Part shown: positions 13,634 to 23,812 of the stretch, in pieces
Layout of the letters: every line of letters begins with the position of its first letter
How positions within the stretch are numbered: position 1 is the first letter of the stretch
From: an uncultured Eubacteriales bacterium
Lineage (GTDB): Bacteria > Bacillota > Clostridia > Peptostreptococcales > Anaerovoracaceae
Assembly: GCA_902773835.1 (NCBI GenBank)
Contig: CACYFZ010000007.1
Span: 1 to 64,000 of the forward strand
Length of the DNA stretch: 64,000 nt
Direction: 5' to 3'
Notes under the pieces: generated by a model
Databases searched by the model: none
Told to the model about the DNA's origin: nothing
Seen by the model: the letters and a program-made list of their open reading frames with translations, nothing else
Made by a program: the position numbers and the translations under genes

Positions 13634-13724
13634 CCTCAGCAGACATATGTGATAGAATTGACAAGAATTGAAAAGCAAGATGAGGCATCGGCTAAAATAG
13701 ATGCCGGACAGGGGACAAGACATA

Positions 13725-14270
13725 ATGGCTAATAAAAATGATAAAGAACTGAGGTTTCAATTAAGCAATGATGATTATAAAGCATTCGGACGCTACCGTA
13801 TACTTTTCACCAAGGGCGGAAAGAAGCTGATTAACAGACAGAGACTTACATATCTGTTATCCGGCGTGCTGATTGCACTGCTCTTTACGGTCTTCAAAGT
13901 GGATCCTACATTTACAAAGCTGGCATATGTCGCAGCGGCAGTTATCGGAATCGGCGGAGCAATTGTGGCTCCGAAGCTGGTGCTGAAGCAGCAGGCTGCA
14001 GCAATTGATGCGACTGCTGACGACCCGGAGAGAGTCCATCCTGTGGAAAACATAGTCAGATTTGAGGATGATTCCATGAATACAGAAGCCGGAGATGATA
14101 AGCAGTCTTTTCTTTATTCGGACATTCAGCAGGTGGATATGACTGAGGATGCTATATATGTATGGATGAGTGACATCATGATAATGCCTCTTCCTCTGCA
14201 CGCTTTTAAGAATCAGAAGGCGATGGAGGATATGTACGACTTCCTTCAGGAGAAGACTGCTAAAGCATAG
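13725..14270 (+). CDS. YcxB-like membrane protein
   Basis: The protein has an N-terminal cytosolic stretch, two adjacent transmembrane helices (about residues 42-60 and 64-85 from the chosen start) and a C-terminal domain of mixed strands ending in an IMPLPLHAFKNQKAMEDMYDFL segment. This resembles the YcxB-like group of unknown function. I choose the ATG at 13725, which follows AGGGGA, not the earlier frame opening at 13701. The length is 181 residues. It stands alone between gpsA and the met operon. Confidence 0.7.
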   Translation: MANKNDKELRFQLSNDDYKAFGRYRILFTKGGKKLINRQRLTYLLSGVLIALLFTVFKVDPTFTKLAYVAAAVIGIGGAIVAPKLVLKQQAAAIDATADDPERVHPVENIVRFEDDSMNTEAGDDKQSFLYSDIQQVDMTEDAIYVWMSDIMIMPLPLHAFKNQKAMEDMYDFLQEKTAKA

Positions 14271-14318: not shown

Positions 14319-14347
14319 TTGACTTAGCACATAATCATTGCTATAGT
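14319..14347 (+). promoter_or_regulatory. Promoter of the met leader and metNIQ
   Basis: TTGACT (14319-14324), a 17-bp spacer and TATAGT (14342-14347). Transcription would begin near 14354, leaving about 240 bases of leader before metN. Confidence 0.75.
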
Positions 14348-14384
14348 TCTACGTGAACTTATTCTATGAAAGGAGTACATTCAC

Positions 14385-14450
14385 ATGACTAAAAAGAACA
14401 TGATGATGGAAATGGGAATGATGGGCATGTGCATGTGCTGCGCCAAATAA
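14385..14450 (+). CDS. Met/Cys-rich leader peptide of metNIQ (21 residues)
   Basis: An ATG with a strong AAAGGAG site opens a 21-codon reading frame in which nine residues are Met and three are Cys. It starts MTKKNMMMEMGMMGM and ends with CMCCAK. It lies between the promoter and a terminator that precedes the methionine transporter genes. The composition is hard to explain except as a sensor of Met (and Cys) tRNA charging by ribosome stalling, as in classic attenuation. Codons 18-20 (14438-14444, CTGCGCC) can pair with GGGGCAG in the terminator's left arm (14509-14515) with one mismatch, so a ribosome stalled on upstream Met codons could free an antiterminator. This model is inference; the ORF, its ribosome binding site and the terminator are seen. 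Confidence 0.75.
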   Translation: MTKKNMMMEMGMMGMCMCCAK

Positions 14451-14506
14451 CATAGGATAAGGTCATAACGAATAAACCTAAACTATGAGTTTTCTCATGT
14501 ATACTA

Positions 14507-14540
14507 CGGGGGCAGGTCGTTAGGACCTGTCCCGTTTTTA
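14507..14540 (+). terminator. Attenuator terminator before metN
   Basis: CGGGGGCAGGTC (14507-14518) pairs with GACCTGTCCCG (14524-14534) around a 5-base loop, with one G-U and one bulged G, followed by five T. It sits 57 bases after the leader-peptide stop and 54 bases before metN. A small ATGAG/CTCAT hairpin (14485-14498) precedes it. Confidence 0.8.
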
Positions 14541-14593
14541 TCGGTCGCGGGCGCAGCACTGAGACCGAAAGAATAAAGCAAGGAAGGACACAA

Positions 14594-15664
14594 ATGGCAG
14601 AAAATATCATAAGTCTGCAAGGGGTGACCAAAGAGTTCACGACAAAGAGCGGGCCGGTGGTTGCTCTAAGGGACATTAATCTGGATATAGAAAGAGGAGA
14701 CTCCTATGGGATCATCGGACTCTCCGGCGCCGGTAAATCCACGCTGGTAAGAACGATAAATCTCCTGGAGGAGCCGACTGAGGGCAAGGTCCTCTTCGAC
14801 GGAAGGGTTCTGACGGGGCTTAAGAGCAAGGAGCTGAATCTCCAAAGAAGGAAGATTTCGATGATCTTCCAGCAGTTCAATCTGCTGATGCAAAGAGACG
14901 CTGTCGGAAATATTTGCTTCCCGCTGGAGATAGCGGGCGTTCCTAAGGCAGAGGCAGTTGCCAAAGCCGAGGAGCTTCTGAAGGTGGTAGACCTGGAAGA
15001 GAGAGCTCATTCTTATCCGTCTCAGCTCTCGGGAGGACAGAAGCAGAGAGTAGCCATAGCCAGAGCTCTGGCCTCAGACCCTGAGGTAATACTCTGCGAC
15101 GAGGCAACATCGGCACTGGACCCGAAAACAACTCGTTCCATCCTCACTCTGTTGAGAAAGATCAATGAGGAGAGAGGCATCACACTCGTAGTAATCACTC
15201 ACGAGATGGGCGTTATAAAACAGCTTTGCAACAAGGTTGCCGTAATAGAAGGCGGAGAGATTGTCGAGCGAGGCCCGGTCAAGGAGATATTCGCCAATCC
15301 TAAGACTAAAGCGGCCAGAAAACTCTTCTTCCCTGACGCCGGCGAAAGAGAGATGCCGCATGTGAGAACCGCAGTCAAGAACAGACTCAGACTTGCATTC
15401 AATGAGCAGACGGCATACAAACCGATAATTGCCAACATGATTCTCGAAATCGGAGAACCCGTAAATATGCTTTATGCCAATATGGATGCACTCTTGGATG
15501 AGCAGAAGGGGCAGATGGTAATAGCTCTATCGGATGACAAAGAAATAGCCGAAAAACAGAAGGCTTATCTGATGAAAGAAGGTGTCAACTTCACGGAGAT
15601 ACCTGAAGACTCAGACTATTACGATTATCCCGTTAACGGGCCGGAAGAGGAGGTGAGCGAATAA
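14594..15664 (+). CDS. metN: Methionine ABC transporter, ATP-binding protein
   Basis: This ATPase drives D/L-methionine import. Walker A is GLSGAGKST at residues 42-50, the signature is LSGGQKQR, and Walker B is VILCDEATSALD. The last ~80 residues form a NIL domain, the regulatory methionine-binding domain of MetN, which sets it apart from other ABC ATPases. The 356-residue length fits. Its stop overlaps the metI start. Regulation probably acts through the leader peptide and terminator upstream. Confidence 0.95.
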   Translation: MAENIISLQGVTKEFTTKSGPVVALRDINLDIERGDSYGIIGLSGAGKSTLVRTINLLEEPTEGKVLFDGRVLTGLKSKELNLQRRKISMIFQQFNLLMQRDAVGNICFPLEIAGVPKAEAVAKAEELLKVVDLEERAHSYPSQLSGGQKQRVAIARALASDPEVILCDEATSALDPKTTRSILTLLRKINEERGITLVVITHEMGVIKQLCNKVAVIEGGEIVERGPVKEIFANPKTKAARKLFFPDAGEREMPHVRTAVKNRLRLAFNEQTAYKPIIANMILEIGEPVNMLYANMDALLDEQKGQMVIALSDDKEIAEKQKAYLMKEGVNFTEIPEDSDYYDYPVNGPEEEVSE

Positions 15665-16326
15665 TGGATGCACAGACTTTGCTTAAACTTCTCGGAGAAG
15701 GTACGGTGCAGACGCTGATCATGACATTGGTCGGAACGCTGGTATCGTATATGATCGGACTTCCGGTAGGAGTGTCGCTTATAACAAGCAGCCCGAACGG
15801 AATAAGACCGATGCCTGTATACAACAAGGTTATGGGCTTTATAGTAAACGTAATAAGATCCATGCCGTTCCTGATACTCATGATTGCATTCATGCCGTAT
15901 ATCAGGATTCTCATCGGAACGGGAATCGGAACGGCAGCCACCACGGCAGCTCTGATACTTGCAGCCTGGCCGTTCGTAGCCAGAATGGTGGAGCAGTCAC
16001 TGCTGGAAGTAGATCCGGGCGTTATCGAAGCGGCTCAGGCCATGGGGGCCAGCAATATGCAGATTATAAGAAAGGTTCTGCTGCTGGAAGCCAGACCGTC
16101 ACTGCTGAACGGAGCGGCTGTAGCCACCATAACTATCCTCGGATACTCCGCCATGGCCGGTACACTCGGCGGCGGCGGCCTCGGAGACATAGCGATCAGA
16201 TTCGGTCACTACAGATTCCAACCTACAGTCATGTGGATTACCATAATTGTACTGGTGGTGCTGGTGCAGATAATGCAGGAAATCGGAATAAGGGTAGCGG
16301 CCAAACTGGATAATCGTATCAACTAA
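15664..16326 (+). CDS. metI: Methionine ABC transporter, permease
   Basis: A 220-residue inner-membrane permease with about five helices. The cytosolic loop that docks on MetN carries the EAA-type motif EAAQAMGASNMQIIRKVLL, and the later GGGGLGDIAIRFGHYRFQ is typical of MetI. It overlaps metN by one base, so expression is coupled. Two copies pair with a MetN dimer. Confidence 0.95.
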   Translation: MDAQTLLKLLGEGTVQTLIMTLVGTLVSYMIGLPVGVSLITSSPNGIRPMPVYNKVMGFIVNVIRSMPFLILMIAFMPYIRILIGTGIGTAATTAALILAAWPFVARMVEQSLLEVDPGVIEAAQAMGASNMQIIRKVLLLEARPSLLNGAAVATITILGYSAMAGTLGGGGLGDIAIRFGHYRFQPTVMWITIIVLVVLVQIMQEIGIRVAAKLDNRIN

Positions 16327-16367: not shown

Positions 16368-17216
16368 ATGAAGAACATTAAGAAACTTGGATTAATCGCA
16401 AGCATACTTGTACTTGCACTCGCACTGCTCGCATCCTGCGGCGGCGGAAGCAGCACATCTGACAGCGGCAGCGAAGGCGGCGATGCAGATAAGACCATTA
16501 AGGTTGCAGCATCCCCAACACCTCATGCTGAAATTCTGAACGCTGTTGCAGGCACTCTTGAGAAGGAAGGATGGACACTCGAAGTTGAGGAGTTCGACGA
16601 CTATGTACAGCCTAACGTAGCTACTACAGACGGCGATGTAGACGCCAACTTCTTCCAGCACGTTCCTTATCTCGACGAGTACAATGCTCAGAACGGAACT
16701 AAGCTCGTATCCGTAGCAGCTATTCACTATGAACCGATGGGCGTTTATGCAGGAACAAAGAAGAGCTTCGATGAGCTTGCTGACGGAGACAAGATCGGTA
16801 TTCCTAACGATGCCACAAACGGAGCAAGAGCACTTCTTCTTCTCCAGGACAACGGCGTAATCAAGCTGAAGGACGGTGCGGGAGTTACGGCAACTGAGCA
16901 GGATATCGCTGAGAACCCTAAGAATATCAAGATTGTACCTCTCGAGGCAGCTACAATTCCGGCTTCTCTTCCGGACCTCGCACTCGGTATAATCAACGGA
17001 AATTATGCAGTAGGAGCTGATCTTAAGATCTCAGATGCTATTGCTACGGAAACAGAGGACTCACTGGCTGCTGAAACATATGCAAATGTTATCGTAGTAA
17101 ATGAGGAGAACAAGGACAGCGAGAAGACAAAGGCTCTCGTAGCAGCTCTTCAGACTGAGGAAGTTAAGAAGTTCATCGACGACAATTATGCAGGCGCAGT
17201 AAAGGCTAAGTTCTAA
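16368..17216 (+). CDS. metQ: Methionine-binding lipoprotein
   Basis: The extracytoplasmic substrate-binding protein of the Met importer (NlpA/MetQ family). A signal peptide ends in the lipobox LLASC with the lipidated Cys at residue 24, followed by a Gly/Ser linker. Family features are ASPTPHAEIL, VDANFFQHVPYLDEYN and the IPNDATNGARALLLLQ segment. I choose the ATG at 16368 after AAAGGAG rather than an upstream TTG; the length is 282 residues. A strong terminator follows. Confidence 0.95.
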   Translation: MKNIKKLGLIASILVLALALLASCGGGSSTSDSGSEGGDADKTIKVAASPTPHAEILNAVAGTLEKEGWTLEVEEFDDYVQPNVATTDGDVDANFFQHVPYLDEYNAQNGTKLVSVAAIHYEPMGVYAGTKKSFDELADGDKIGIPNDATNGARALLLLQDNGVIKLKDGAGVTATEQDIAENPKNIKIVPLEAATIPASLPDLALGIINGNYAVGADLKISDAIATETEDSLAAETYANVIVVNEENKDSEKTKALVAALQTEEVKKFIDDNYAGAVKAKF

Positions 17217-17431: not shown

Positions 17432-20400
17432 ATGATGACGAAGGATTTCGTAAAAGTAGACAAATGGGGAGAATGCCTTTGGGGCATAGATGAAAACGGC
17501 ACCTTGTTCATAAACGAGGGAGAGGCGGCAGATCTCGCAGGAGAAAATGCACCTTGGTACGATGACAGAGAATCTATCACCGAGGTTTCTACCATAGGAA
17601 ATATAAGCTTCCCGGAAGCTGCGTCACTGGCGGGGCTTTTCAGGGGATGCAGGAATCTCGAAAAAGCGGACCTGAGTGGATTCAACACATCTAATGTAAA
17701 AGATATGAGCTACATGTTTGAAGCTTGTATTAATCTCGAGGAATTGGATCTGAGCTCTTTTAACACTCTTTCCTGCAGCAATATGAAAGGGATGTTCGGT
17801 AATTGTATCGACCTAAAAAACATTCTTCTCGGTGAGGCGTTCAGCACCAGCGGGGACGGAACCACCGATGCAGGCAAACTCGCAATTAAGGAAGAGAATA
17901 AATACAGAAGAGCCAGGGTTATTTCCGTTGACGGATTCAAAGTCAGATATCATGACGAGAACGGGGATGTTATTGAGAAAAAATCAGTCCCTAATTTCAG
18001 ATATGTAGTAGAAAACGATCTGTTCAAATCCGAGGATGAGAATACGAAATTCCTCGGATGGAGCACTGAGCCGAATGCCGGCGGCAGCTTCATAAGATCG
18101 GGACAGGAGCTTAGGTCAGTGAGCGGAGATATTGATTTTTACTGCGTAAGAGCACATGCGCCTAAACTGGGACCGGTAGAATCTGTCAGACCTTTTTCAT
18201 TCGGGGAGCAAATACCGTTTGCTCTTCCGGAGATTGAGTCAAAAAATGCACCTGAGGTTACGGGCTTTCTTGAGATAAGTCCTGACGGAAGTGAAGGAAG
18301 CTGGATCGCCATAGAACGAGACACTATACTTCCCGTCTCCTGCGACGGCTACTATCTCAGATTGCACGCCTCCAATGTAGTCGGAGCGGCTGTATCCGAG
18401 CCTGTTAAGTTGCATATAAGAAAGGCCAACGTAAATATGTCATCGGTTCGCTGGACGGAGCAGGATGACATGGTATATAACGGGGAGCCGAAGAAGGTTT
18501 GGGTGGAAGGCCTTCCCGAAGGCGTTGAAGCCACATACAGCGGAAATGTAGCCACGGAAGCAGGCACATATAAGGCCACTTTCAACTTAGAAATAGATAA
18601 AAACAATTTCAATGTTCCGCCTGTAGTAAAGGACCATGAGTGGACGATTAAGAAGGCCGTATACGACATGTCCAATGTACGCTGGAATTACGAAGGCGCA
18701 TTCGGATACACGGGTGAAGAATATAAGGTTGAACTCAAAGGGCTGCCTGAAGGTGTCAGCGCTACCTATGAAAATAATACAGCGATAAATGCAGGGGTTT
18801 ACACCGCCGTAGCTATTCTCAGTTATGACGAGGTCAACTACGAAAGACCTGCGGAGATTAATCCGTGCACATGGGAGATAAGAAAGGTCGCTATCGACCC
18901 GGCCAAACTGCAGTGGACAGTTTGCGATGACTTCATCTATGACGGAAACAGCAAGTCCGTACGAATCACCAATCTGCCTGAGGGCATAGAGGTGGAATAC
19001 AGCGGAGATAGAGCATCATCAGCCGGCAAATATCTGGCCAGAGCTAATATGCTCGGAAACTATTGCACCAGCGGACCGGCAGAGTATGAGTGGGAGATTA
19101 AGAAGGCCAAGTACGACATGTCCAAAGCGATGTGGTCTGTACAGAGCTCATACACATATGACGGAAATAAGCATGTAATGGAATTGTCCGGAGTTCCGGA
19201 AGAACTGGAAGTAAGGTACAGCGGAAACGAAGGTCTTACGTCCGGCGAATACAAAGCCAGGGCAAGCTTCATTAACCCGGACACACACAACTTCGAGACG
19301 CCTGAAGATATGGAAAAATCTTGGGAGATCATAAAGAGATTTGTCGACATGTCCGAGGTAAAGTGGAATTACGAAGGACCTTTTGACTACGACGGTTTAG
19401 GAAAGAGAATCGAACTGGTCGGATTGCCGGAAGGCATAGGCGTTGAGTATAAGGACAACAGCTCAAGCGACGCCGGAATCTATAACGCACAAGCTCATCT
19501 TGTATATGACGAGGACAACTTCGTCGCAGAGGATCCTATGGATTGCCGCTGGATGATCAACAAGAAGAGGGTGGATGTATCCGGAGTAAAGTGGGCATAT
19601 GACGAAGCCTTTACGTATGATGGTACAGAGCACAGAATCGAACTGGAAAACATTCCGGACGGCCTGATAGCAGAGTATGCGGATAATGCCAAGGTCAACG
19701 CAGGAAAGTACGTGGCAAGCGCCACTCTTATTGCAAACGACGACAGAAATTACGAAGTTCCTAAGATCAGCGGATGCACCTGGTCCATCAACAAAGCTGA
19801 GATACCTATGCCGGAGATGGAATGGACCGACAGCTCAGAATTTATATATGACGGAACGGAAAAGAAGGTTCAGATACTGAGCGATCCGGGAGACGCCGTT
19901 ACTGTTGACTACAGGAACAACTCTGCCGTAAATGCGGGACGTTACTATGCTAAAGCGGTATTCTCCGCCGTAGATGATAGCAACTATAACGCACCTAAAG
20001 AGCTCGGCTATTCATGGGAGATAGCCAAAGCCGACTATGATATGTCCGGAGTTCACTGGGATTATGAAGCTCCGTTCACCTATGACGGAGACATGAAATC
20101 CGTCAGAGTGGCAGGTGTGCCTAAGGGTGTAAAAGTAAGCTACAGAAACGCAGAAGCAAAGGACGCGGGGGCATACAATGCCGTTGCGGAGTTTGAAGTG
20201 CTTGATAAAGTTAATTATTACGATAATATTCCGGATATGCTTCTCGATTGGAGCATACAGAAAGCCAGATATGACATGGCATCCGTACACTGGCAGGAGG
20301 ACAGAGAGTTCTCATATGACGGCTCTGCCAAGAGCATCAGACTGTCAGGCCTTCCTGACGGATTGGAGCCTGTTTACGAAGGCAACACTGCCAGCGTGGC

Positions 20401-23400
20401 AGGTCAGTATACCGCTAAAGCTTCATTTAAATATGATGAAAAGAATTATGAGGAGCCTGAGCTTGCATCATGCCACTGGGTGGTAGATAAGACAGCCCTG
20501 GATATTTCCGCCGTAAGGTGGAATTATGAGAGTCCGTATAAGTATGACGGAACAGAGAAGAAGGTTGAGCTCGTAGGAGTACCTGAAGGAGCTGTAGTCA
20601 ATTACAGCAATGAAACAGCTACAACGGCAGGCAGTTACATTGCTGCGGCCGAGATCATTCCTGAGGATACGGACAATCTTACCAAGTCAAAGGTGGAGAA
20701 CCTCAACTGGAGGATAGAGAAGGGCGACTATGATATGAGTCATGTCCATTGGGATTACGAGAAGGCATTCACGTATGACGGACAGGAGCATAAAGTAGTT
20801 GTTAAAGGATATCCGGAAGGAGTGACACCGATATACAGAGGAAACAGTGCCAAGGCTGCAGGAAAGTATGAAGCATCTGTTACTTTTAAGGTTGCAGATA
20901 AAAAGAATTTCAACATTCCGGTATTTGAGAGCCTAACATGGGAGATAGCAAAAGCTGACTACGATATGTCCAATGCCAAATGGGACTACGAGGGAACGAT
21001 TACTTACGACGGCAGAATGCACGAGGTTCTTCTCAGAGGACTCCCTGAAGGTGTTAAGGCCGTTTACTCAGGTAATGCAGCGGCTGAGACCGGCTCATAT
21101 GAGGCAACTGCGGAACTGGTTCCGTATGATAAGGCCAATTATAACATTCCTACAGCGGATAAGTGCAGCTGGCAGATTGCCAAGGCGGATTATGATATGT
21201 CCAAGGTAAGATGGGACTACAAGGACGCTAAGGTATATAACGGCAGAGGACAGGGTGTAATGCTGGATCAGCTCCCTAACGGAGTTCTGGCAACTTACAG
21301 CGGAAACGAAGGAGTCAAGGTCGGGAAATACACTGCCAAGGCAGTTCTTACCGTATCCGATTCCGCTAATTACAACACCCCTGCCGTAGCTGATTGCGAC
21401 TGGGAGATTGTTCCTGCCGATTACGATATCTCTTCGGTAAGTTGGGATTACGAGGCAGATAAATACGTCTATGACGGTGAGCGAAAGACTGTCGAACTTA
21501 AGGGACTTCCTAAGAGCATAGAGGCTGACTATAAAGGAAACAGCGCAACTCACGCAGGTGATTATGTGGCTACGGCGAACTTCGTATCGAATGATGCCAA
21601 CTTCAAGGCACCTGATCCTATCAGTATGAATTGGAGCATAGCCAAGGCTAATCACAATATGCGCGAAGTATATTGGGATTACAGTGAGAATTTGTCTTAT
21701 GACGGCACTCCTAAGAGGATTGAACTCAAGGGTGTACCTAAAGGAATTAAAGTAAATTACGTAGATAATGAGAAAACAGATGCGGGCACTTACACTGCCG
21801 TCGCACATTTTGAAGCTGAGACTGAAGATTTTAATGCTCCCGAGGATATGAGCTGCGTATGGACCATCGATAAAGGAGAGGTGGATATTCGCAAACTCAG
21901 CTGGGATTATTCACAGCCGTTCAAATACAACGGAGAGAACAGAAGCGTTAAACTGAAAGGACTTTCGAACCTCCTGGAGGCCAAGTACAGCGGAAATGAA
22001 GCTGTTGACAGCGGAAGCTATATGGCTGAGGCTGAACTCGTTCCGCTGGATCCGGCCAATTACAATACTCCTGCAATCGGAGGTTGTAAGTGGGAGATTA
22101 TTAAGGCTGACTACGACATGACCAATGCCAGATGGGAAGGAGACTTCGACAGCGAGTATGACGGGCGTCAACACGGTGTATACATCGAAGGGCTTCCTGA
22201 GGGCCTAAAAGCGGTTTACAGCGGCAATGAAGCTACATCAGTAGGCGACTACGTAGCGTCGGCAGAACTTGCGGGAGACTATGACAACTACAATCCGGTA
22301 GAAATAGATGACTGCTCGTGGAAGATCAGAAAAGCCAGCTTCGATATGACCCATGTGGCATGGCAGGAGCAGAACGATTTCGTATATGACGGTTCATCCA
22401 AACATGTAGAACTCGTCGGATTGCCTGAGGGCATCAAGCCTGTCTACAGTGACAACACCGCCACTGAAGTGGGGGACTATGAAGCAGCTGTCAGCTTTGA
22501 ATATGATGAGCATAATTATGAAGCGCCTGAATTCGGCAACTTCAAGTGGAATATCGCCAAAGCGGACATTCCTGTAAATATTGGCGAAGTTCACTGGAAC
22601 TACAGCGGGCCGTTCGTATATGACGGTACGGAAAAGAGCGTAGCCCTGGCTCAGGCCGAAGAAAAACCAGGATTTTTCGAAAGACTGCGCGGCAAAGGCT
22701 CGGAGATTAAACTGGAGGGAGTGCCTGAAGGCTTCGATGTAGTTTATGAAGGAAATACCGCAACTGATGCGGGAGTGTATTATGCATCAGCTAAATTGGT
22801 CAGCAAGGACGGTTCCAATTACACAGAGACAGAACTGCCTCGTTGTAAATGGGAAATTGCCAAGGCGCCTATAGATATGATAGGAGTACATTGGAACTAT
22901 GAGACTCCGTTCTCATATGACGGAGAGGAAAAGAGCGTGGAACTCGTGGGCCTTCCTGAAAACGTTAAGGTCAGCTACAGTGACAATACAGCCAAGAATG
23001 CCGGAACTTATGAGGCCATGGCTGTTATCGAGGCGGCGGACCCTGCCAATTTTGAAGAGCCTAATCCTGTGGCAGGATGCTGGTGGCAGATAGATAAGGC
23101 TGTCTATGATATGTCTGAGGCACGCTGGGTGTTTGATGAGGATCTCATATATAACGGTAAAGAGCACAAGGTAAGAGTAATCGGACTCCCTGACGGAGTC
23201 AGAGTAGCATCCTACGAGGGCAACAAAGAAGTGAATGCCGGCTCATACCTTGCAGAAGCCAATCTGAGATACCGAGACAAGAGCAATTATGAGGAGCCGA
23301 TACTCCCTGAATGCAGATGGCGCATAGAAAAGAAAACCGTGGACGTGTCCGAGGTAAGGTGGGATTACGACGAAAGCAGCCTCATGGTATACGACGGCAA

Positions 23401-23812
23401 GCCTAAGACGGTCAAGTTAATCGGAGTGCCGAAAGAGGTGGAAGTCATCTATATAGATAACAGCAAGATTAACGCCGGAACGTATACCGCACGCGCCAAA
23501 CTCAGTTATGACAGCAACAACTTTGAAGTGGCTGAGATACCTGATATAAAGTGGACAATTGAGAAAGCATCCTATAATACGGACAAAGTTCACTGGACAT
23601 ATGATAAACCTTTCGAGTACGACGGTAAGAACAAGACCATAAGCCTGGTCGGTCTTCCGAGCTCGATAGACGTCAAATACAGAGACAATAAAGCTTCGAA
23701 AATCGGCACGTATACGGCCAAGGCTTATCTGACATATGACAGTGAAAACTACAAGGAGCCTGAGGTAGATGCCACGATTGACTGGAGCATTGTAAGAAAG
23801 CAGGAAGATTAG
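17432..23812 (+). CDS. Giant repeat protein: BspA-like N-terminus, InlB-type repeat and 23 MBG-like repeats
   Basis: A 2126-residue protein. Residues ~60-140 hold BspA/DUF285-type leucine-rich repeats (DLSGFNTSNVKDMSYMF). Residues ~170-245 resemble a Listeria-Bacteroides (InlB B) repeat with FLGWSTEPNAGGSF. An Ig-like segment follows, then 23 tandem repeats of ~76 residues from residue ~331 to the end. Each follows the pattern DMSxVxWxYExxFxYDG...GLPEGVxxxYxxNxAxxAGxYxAxA...W.I.KA. Repeat 19 has a ~20-residue insertion (PGFFERLRGKG). Such architectures are normally secreted adhesins, yet there is no signal peptide, no membrane segment and no LPXTG anchor, and an in-frame TGA at 17420-17422 rules out an upstream extension. 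The repeats are diverged, so the array is old. A second ATG at 17435 is better spaced from AGGGG. Function unknown. Confidence 0.9.
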   Translation: MMTKDFVKVDKWGECLWGIDENGTLFINEGEAADLAGENAPWYDDRESITEVSTIGNISFPEAASLAGLFRGCRNLEKADLSGFNTSNVKDMSYMFEACINLEELDLSSFNTLSCSNMKGMFGNCIDLKNILLGEAFSTSGDGTTDAGKLAIKEENKYRRARVISVDGFKVRYHDENGDVIEKKSVPNFRYVVENDLFKSEDENTKFLGWSTEPNAGGSFIRSGQELRSVSGDIDFYCVRAHAPKLGPVESVRPFSFGEQIPFALPEIESKNAPEVTGFLEISPDGSEGSWIAIERDTILPVSCDGYYLRLHASNVVGAAVSEPVKLHIRKANVNMSSVRWTEQDDMVYNGEPKKVWVEGLPEGVEATYSGNVATEAGTYKATFNLEIDKNNFNVPPVVKDHEWTIKKAVYDMSNVRWNYEGAFGYTGEEYKVELKGLPEGVSATYENNTAINAGVYTAVAILSYDEVNYERPAEINPCTWEIRKVAIDPAKLQWTVCDDFIYDGNSKSVRITNLPEGIEVEYSGDRASSAGKYLARANMLGNYCTSGPAEYEWEIKKAKYDMSKAMWSVQSSYTYDGNKHVMELSGVPEELEVRYSGNEGLTSGEYKARASFINPDTHNFETPEDMEKSWEIIKRFVDMSEVKWNYEGPFDYDGLGKRIELVGLPEGIGVEYKDNSSSDAGIYNAQAHLVYDEDNFVAEDPMDCRWMINKKRVDVSGVKWAYDEAFTYDGTEHRIELENIPDGLIAEYADNAKVNAGKYVASATLIANDDRNYEVPKISGCTWSINKAEIPMPEMEWTDSSEFIYDGTEKKVQILSDPGDAVTVDYRNNSAVNAGRYYAKAVFSAVDDSNYNAPKELGYSWEIAKADYDMSGVHWDYEAPFTYDGDMKSVRVAGVPKGVKVSYRNAEAKDAGAYNAVAEFEVLDKVNYYDNIPDMLLDWSIQKARYDMASVHWQEDREFSYDGSAKSIRLSGLPDGLEPVYEGNTASVAGQYTAKASFKYDEKNYEEPELASCHWVVDKTALDISAVRWNYESPYKYDGTEKKVELVGVPEGAVVNYSNETATTAGSYIAAAEIIPEDTDNLTKSKVENLNWRIEKGDYDMSHVHWDYEKAFTYDGQEHKVVVKGYPEGVTPIYRGNSAKAAGKYEASVTFKVADKKNFNIPVFESLTWEIAKADYDMSNAKWDYEGTITYDGRMHEVLLRGLPEGVKAVYSGNAAAETGSYEATAELVPYDKANYNIPTADKCSWQIAKADYDMSKVRWDYKDAKVYNGRGQGVMLDQLPNGVLATYSGNEGVKVGKYTAKAVLTVSDSANYNTPAVADCDWEIVPADYDISSVSWDYEADKYVYDGERKTVELKGLPKSIEADYKGNSATHAGDYVATANFVSNDANFKAPDPISMNWSIAKANHNMREVYWDYSENLSYDGTPKRIELKGVPKGIKVNYVDNEKTDAGTYTAVAHFEAETEDFNAPEDMSCVWTIDKGEVDIRKLSWDYSQPFKYNGENRSVKLKGLSNLLEAKYSGNEAVDSGSYMAEAELVPLDPANYNTPAIGGCKWEIIKADYDMTNARWEGDFDSEYDGRQHGVYIEGLPEGLKAVYSGNEATSVGDYVASAELAGDYDNYNPVEIDDCSWKIRKASFDMTHVAWQEQNDFVYDGSSKHVELVGLPEGIKPVYSDNTATEVGDYEAAVSFEYDEHNYEAPEFGNFKWNIAKADIPVNIGEVHWNYSGPFVYDGTEKSVALAQAEEKPGFFERLRGKGSEIKLEGVPEGFDVVYEGNTATDAGVYYASAKLVSKDGSNYTETELPRCKWEIAKAPIDMIGVHWNYETPFSYDGEEKSVELVGLPENVKVSYSDNTAKNAGTYEAMAVIEAADPANFEEPNPVAGCWWQIDKAVYDMSEARWVFDEDLIYNGKEHKVRVIGLPDGVRVASYEGNKEVNAGSYLAEANLRYRDKSNYEEPILPECRWRIEKKTVDVSEVRWDYDESSLMVYDGKPKTVKLIGVPKEVEVIYIDNSKINAGTYTARAKLSYDSNNFEVAEIPDIKWTIEKASYNTDKVHWTYDKPFEYDGKNKTISLVGLPSSIDVKYRDNKASKIGTYTAKAYLTYDSENYKEPEVDATIDWSIVRKQED
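18422..23809 (+). repeat. Coding array of 23 diverged ~228-bp repeats
   Basis: These bases encode the 23 protein repeats of the giant gene. Unit length is mostly 219-234 bp, with one unit enlarged by an insertion near 22650-22715. Identity is clearer in protein than in DNA; the conserved words encode DYDMS at the start, YDG in the middle and W-x-I-x-K-A at the end. Confidence 0.9.

Follow-up and report, generated by a model that had tools for sequence, protein, structure and literature searches.

A probable Met- and Cys-sensing leader-peptide attenuator upstream of the metNIQ genes in Candidatus Crickella

Genomic context of the leader

The window analyzed here, a 64-kb stretch that is part of a 1.89-Mb assembly, carries a leader region at positions 14319-14593 with metN downstream. 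The features of the leader and of the genes that follow it are listed by coordinates and strand.

14319..14347, + strand: promoter TTGACT-17-TATAGT (TTGACT at 14319-14324, a 17-nt spacer, TATAGT at 14342-14347)
14358..14368, + strand: 5' strand of helix P1, CTTATTCTATG, immediately 5' of the Shine-Dalgarno sequence
14369..14375, + strand: Shine-Dalgarno sequence AAAGGAG of the leader ORF, near-invariant across 40 aligned copies
14375..14387, + strand: 5' strand of helix P2, GTACATTCACATG, leader start codon included; two of its pairs show compensatory changes, p=0.002 when compared to shuffles
14385..14450, + strand: leader ORF, MTKKNMMMEMGMMGMCMCCAK and stop; frame kept in 43 copies, core nearly invariant
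14426..14438, + strand: 3' strand of helix P2, CATGTGCATGTGC, inside the GMCMC codons
14451..14461, + strand: 3' strand of helix P1, CATAGGATAAG, starting right 3' of the stop codon
14451-14455 with 14483-14487, + strand: alternative pairing P4, CATAG:CTATG, which competes with the P1 strand
14461..14471, + strand: 5' strand of the antiterminator, GGUCAUAACGA / GGTCATAACGA, from comparative pairing and folding
14485..14498, + strand: small hairpin ATGAG-TTTT-CTCAT, a predicted fold between the antiterminator strands
14509..14533, + strand: intrinsic terminator, a stem-loop GGGGCAGGTC-GTTAG-GACCTGTCCC, then GTTTTT
14517..14527, + strand: 3' strand of the antiterminator, UCGUUAGGACC / TCGTTAGGACC, in the loop and 3' arm of the terminator
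14594..15664, + strand: metN, ATPase with NIL domain (Pfam, NCBIfam)
15664..16326, + strand: metI, permease (domain match)
16371..17216, + strand: metQ, substrate-binding lipoprotein (MetQ/NlpA), from ATG 16371; the ORF list has TTG 16335

The promoter, the strong ribosome binding site, the ORF of 21 codons with 9 Met (start counted) and 3 Cys, the terminator, and metN had all been named in the first-pass annotation and were all present. Its gap of about 56 bases between ORF and terminator needed a small correction, as 58 bases separate the stop codon from the terminator stem, and the ORF coordinates were set to 14385-14450. Sequences similar to the promoter, TTGAC and TATA(A/G)T, stand at the corresponding place in the genus alignment. 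Promoter-like and terminator-like sites, each taken alone, were not more frequent than in shuffled sequences. A strict filter, defined as a short ORF with a Shine-Dalgarno sequence, at least 4 Met, and at least 18% Met plus Cys, returned the leader ORF as its sole match on both strands of the window. MetN, MetI, and MetQ scored under the strict NCBIfam cutoffs, and the substrate assignment of metNIQ therefore rests on family and synteny.

Methionine genes of Firmicutes are typically controlled by an S-box, a T-box, or a repressor. Rfam found neither the S-box (RF00162) nor the T-box (RF00230) at the leader of the window, which agrees with the earlier reading of the sequence, and both were ruled out as the control element of this metN. 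No other Rfam family matched the leader RNA. S-boxes are present in 44 of the 47 genomes of the genus, and one precedes metK in the genome of the window.

Conservation within Candidatus Crickella

Pattern hits in named genomes pointed to Candidatus Crickella (Anaerovoracaceae, Clostridia per NCBI) and to MAGs from rumen or gut named 'Mogibacterium sp.' as the genus, which was represented by 47 genomes. The leader DNA was matched in 45 of them, positioned before metN. In 43 copies the ATG and the core were 30, 33, 36, or 39 nt apart, always a multiple of 3, showing that the reading frame is maintained. These in-frame length changes and the conserved Shine-Dalgarno sequence make the leader ORF a good candidate for translation. 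The core MGMMGMCMC was nearly invariant. Almost every copy read M-x-M-G-M-M-G-M-C-M-C; the exceptions were rare exchanges of Cys to Arg and one of Gly to Glu. The third base of the Gly codons did not vary across the genus. Judged by sequence comparison, the leader is real, conserved, and functional-looking.

At three loci (L006 of G039 at 1690-1770, L075, and L076) the leader core is repeated in tandem as a decayed copy that lies between the terminator and metN. The segment between ORF and terminator is deleted in L065 (G037) and L077 (G042), and the terminator is truncated in L025 (G032); either control was lost in these three genomes or the assemblies are faulty there.

Leaders in other genera and at other genes

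The comparison set consisted of 99 metN upstream regions, 39 from other genera of the family and 60 from across Clostridia. Met/Cys-rich ORFs with a Shine-Dalgarno sequence passed the strict filter at 11 of the 39 family loci and 5 of the 60 class loci (16/99), compared to none of 990 dinucleotide shuffles and none of 99 reverse complements. A terminator follows 3' of four of the five class-level leaders. At most of the surveyed metN loci no leader was detected. The 39 family regions held no Rfam SAM or T-box element, while S-box or T-box leaders preceded some of the metN genes among the 60 class regions, so that metN control differs between lineages.

Motif scans added leaders before metN (L087, L252) and before metQ (L091, L119, L121, L255). 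They also placed a Met/Cys-rich leader ORF with a terminator before three genes of other Clostridia (L251, L263, L264) that encode O-acetylhomoserine/O-acetylserine sulfhydrylase (homocysteine synthase, metY) and score over the TIGR01326 cutoff. The leader device is therefore not confined to import. Leaders found by the patterns MMGMCMC or MxMCMC are biased toward that motif. Among the 15 leaders found independently of the motif search, 31 Met-Cys dipeptides were counted where 10.8 were expected, the maximum of 5000 permutations being 22.

The peptides, conserved inside the genus, vary widely across lineages except for their Met-Cys repeats (e.g., MTFKTMTNMMNMEMCMGMCMCTFADKLTSLTRA, MMQKSMYGAMMMGMCMTMGMCNISRALLQNL, and MNHSEAMQMNMDRMNDMCMMMCCMSECVKNR), and every one of them is rich in Met and Cys. 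What unrelated leaders share is this content and not RNA sequence. The check on relatives that had been proposed came out as expected, with the Met-rich ORF and the terminator kept while the peptide drifts between genera. A search of the class with a peptide HMM was too weak to be used and missed the query genome itself.

Met/Cys-rich peptides can bind copper, and such an ORF might be made for its own sake as a small metal-binding peptide, the terminator merely ending its transcript. This is very improbable given the many lineages in which the leader is linked to genes of sulfur amino acid transport or synthesis, the drifting sequence and short length of the peptide, and the covariation of the antiterminator described below.

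RNA helices of the leader

Helix P1 joins CUUAUUCUAUG 5' of the Shine-Dalgarno sequence to CAUAGGAUAAG 3' of the stop codon, so that its strands flank the ORF. In helix P2 the region from the Shine-Dalgarno sequence to the start codon pairs with the MCMC codons of the leader ORF itself. The antiterminator pairs GGUCAUAACGA, just 3' of the stop codon, with UCGUUAGGACC from the loop and 3' arm of the terminator, and it is conserved with compensatory changes. Over the 40 genus sequences, 95.4% of cells in this structure were paired and 6 pairs were changed on both sides, which was equaled by 0 of 500 shuffles, a test limited by the relatedness of the sequences.

Several single copies illustrate these changes. 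In the MCMC codons of G004, G005, G024, and G041, TGC is changed to CGC or CGT (Cys to Arg), and every one of these changes is accompanied by an exchange of A to G in the start region. An antiterminator G-C pair is replaced by A-U in G005. In G025 a double change (C-G to U-A) retains the antiterminator pair, while a terminator pair is lost. P1 complementarity is kept with different sequences in G025, G003, and G022, as well as in G111 of another genus.

The switch suggested in the first-pass annotation, CTGCGCC:GGGGCAG, was dropped as it is not conserved across copies: CTGCGC occurs only in the window, in the near-identical copy G030, and in G021, and the other copies read AGAGCC, GCGCC, and the like. 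Comparison of the copies supports GGUCAUAACGA:UCGUUAGGACC as the better candidate antiterminator. RNAalifold favored other helices on the genus alignment, including CATAG:CTATG (P4), because P1, P4, and the antiterminator compete for the same bases. P4 is unbroken in the 40 sequences and has no two-sided changes.

Outside the genus, P1 reached p<0.05 only in G111 (0.008) and G155 (0.042). For P2, G000 and G180 gave significant signals, and several others gave weaker ones. Single-sequence p values for the antiterminator were about 0.007 in Crickella, 0.007 in G382, and 0.003 in L087. Its strand lies directly after the stop codon in L087, and within the ORF, right after the Met/Cys run, in G382 (GCTTTCTGC with GCAGAAAGC). 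A 9-bp match of the antiterminator kind in L121 was individually not significant. In single-sequence tests the antiterminator was not significant in most other lineages, and P1 was significant in few.

The conserved RNA structure around the ORF, together with the invariant third bases of the Gly codons in the genus, is what a riboswitch-like RNA would display, in which a ligand is bound directly and the ORF is secondary. Such an RNA is nevertheless unlikely here, as the frame survives length changes, the Shine-Dalgarno sequence is conserved, no Rfam family matches, and the Met/Cys content, instead of the RNA sequence, recurs in unrelated leaders. About equally unlikely is a nascent-chain arrest peptide of the TnaC or ErmCL kind, in which the Met-Cys peptide would stall the ribosome upon a small molecule. 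The near-invariance of the MGMMGMCMC core would suit an arrest peptide but is partly explained by P2 pairing, and Cys to Arg is tolerated where pairing is restored; likewise, Met-Cys dipeptides exceed the composition-based expectation across lineages, yet the peptide sequences differ greatly from one lineage to the next.

Folding of growing transcripts

In the folding model, 29 of 34 sequences gave the antiterminator a probability above 0.5 once the terminator loop was transcribed. For full-length transcripts the terminator was favored at the predicted equilibrium in 33 of the 34, and antitermination would therefore have to be kinetic. The antiterminator strand begins about 10 nt past the stop codon in most copies, at the edge of the ribosome's reach. 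Shielding modeled to +13 past the stop codon did not block the antiterminator, while shielding to +20 did. Masking of the P1 5' strand lowered early antiterminator formation from a mean of 0.73 to 0.21 in the model, which fits with P1 aiding the antiterminator. The ability of P1 to extend into the antiterminator strand in several copies would argue the opposite way. For a naked leader without a ribosome, the model favors a transient antiterminator, yet with the P1 extension available the default could be either on or off.

Proposed mechanism

The leader is probably a ribosome-mediated transcription attenuator that senses the supply of Met and Cys and controls the metNIQ importer. The parts of a trp-type attenuator are found here: a short and presumably translated leader ORF, enrichment of pathway codons, and a terminator that precedes the structural genes. 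In the genus, in G382, and in L087 there is also an antiterminator that competes with the terminator and lies 3' of the sensor codons. The mechanism class is well supported by these comparisons, and we infer its details as follows. The earlier proposal of ribosome-mediated attenuation thus stood with regard to the conserved Met/Cys leader ORF and terminator at metN and gave way with regard to the switch pairing.

With ample Met and Cys, translation would proceed as far as the stop codon; the ribosome would then sit on the P1 3' strand and encroach on the antiterminator strand, so that the terminator forms. If Met- or Cys-tRNA is scarce, the ribosome would stall within the Met/Cys run and the RNA 3' of the stop codon would stay accessible, which would let P1 and the antiterminator beside it form and RNA polymerase continue into metNIQ. 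The interleaving of Met and Cys codons would allow a shortage of either amino acid to stall the ribosome at one position. Methionine poses a special problem for a leader attenuator since starvation limits initiation as well, which complicates the classical attenuation logic. A wider proposal is held tentatively, as possible though somewhat doubtful: Clostridia would have a class of attenuators for sulfur amino acid genes whose interleaved Met-Cys codons sense both amino acids and, within a single branch, also close the start site of the leader itself; initiation (fMet-tRNA) and elongation would then both be read out.

Comparison with known systems

Classical attenuators (trp, his, leu, and ilv in Proteobacteria, ilv in Actinobacteria and Firmicutes) have in common with the met leader a short ORF rich in pathway codons, a terminator, a competing antiterminator, and a matching operon. 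The met leader differs from them in that it would sense Met, which is also the initiator amino acid, plus Cys, and control an importer and, in relatives, metY; its first P1 strand lies 5' of the ORF, and its sensor codons pair with their own start region. The S-box (SAM-I) and T-box leaders known from met genes of Firmicutes likewise act by transcription attenuation of methionine genes but bind SAM or tRNA directly, and neither is present at the met leader.

The first-pass annotation had described leader-peptide attenuation as classic for biosynthetic operons of Proteobacteria, which needs the qualification that a Firmicute precedent exists: histidine genes of Firmicutes have regular leader peptides (Naville and Gautheret 2010, PMC2965389). 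These his leaders before hisS and hisZ in bacilli are likewise regular leader-peptide attenuation, replacing T-boxes, but concern another amino acid and other genes, whereas the met leader belongs to Clostridia. In Actinobacteria, Cys leaders have been described and no RNA element for the Met operons (Seliverstov 2005, PMC1262725). The mycobacterial leader ORFs that precede cys operons share the use of Cys codons as the sensor for sulfur amino acid genes but, unlike the met leader, are described with runs of Cys codons only and have no conserved intrinsic terminator. A leader peptide is not described in a paper on a Xanthomonas met 5'UTR (PMC6230763). No Met leader-peptide attenuator was found in the open-access full-text literature searched, so that any priority is provisional. 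What appears to be new is leader-peptide attenuation sensing Met with Cys, the attenuator type itself being already known.

A leader attenuator sensing Met, and with it Cys, would add a route beyond S-box, T-box, and repressor control in Firmicutes. Annotation pipelines miss such leaders because the ORFs are 20-40 codons long and drift quickly. By linking the sensor codons to the start site, helix P2 makes the problem of Met initiation testable, and the Met-Cys signature offers a handle for locating sulfur amino acid genes in uncultured Clostridia.

Neighboring genes

The gene 5' of the leader (13701-14270) encodes a protein of 189 aa with a YcxB-like domain (PF14317) at its C-terminus. At 17432-23812 lies the gene for a repetitive protein of 2126 aa with PARCEL/DUF285 and MBG-like repeats, which is probably a surface protein. 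A group II intron match at 34-99 was barely over the Rfam cut-off.
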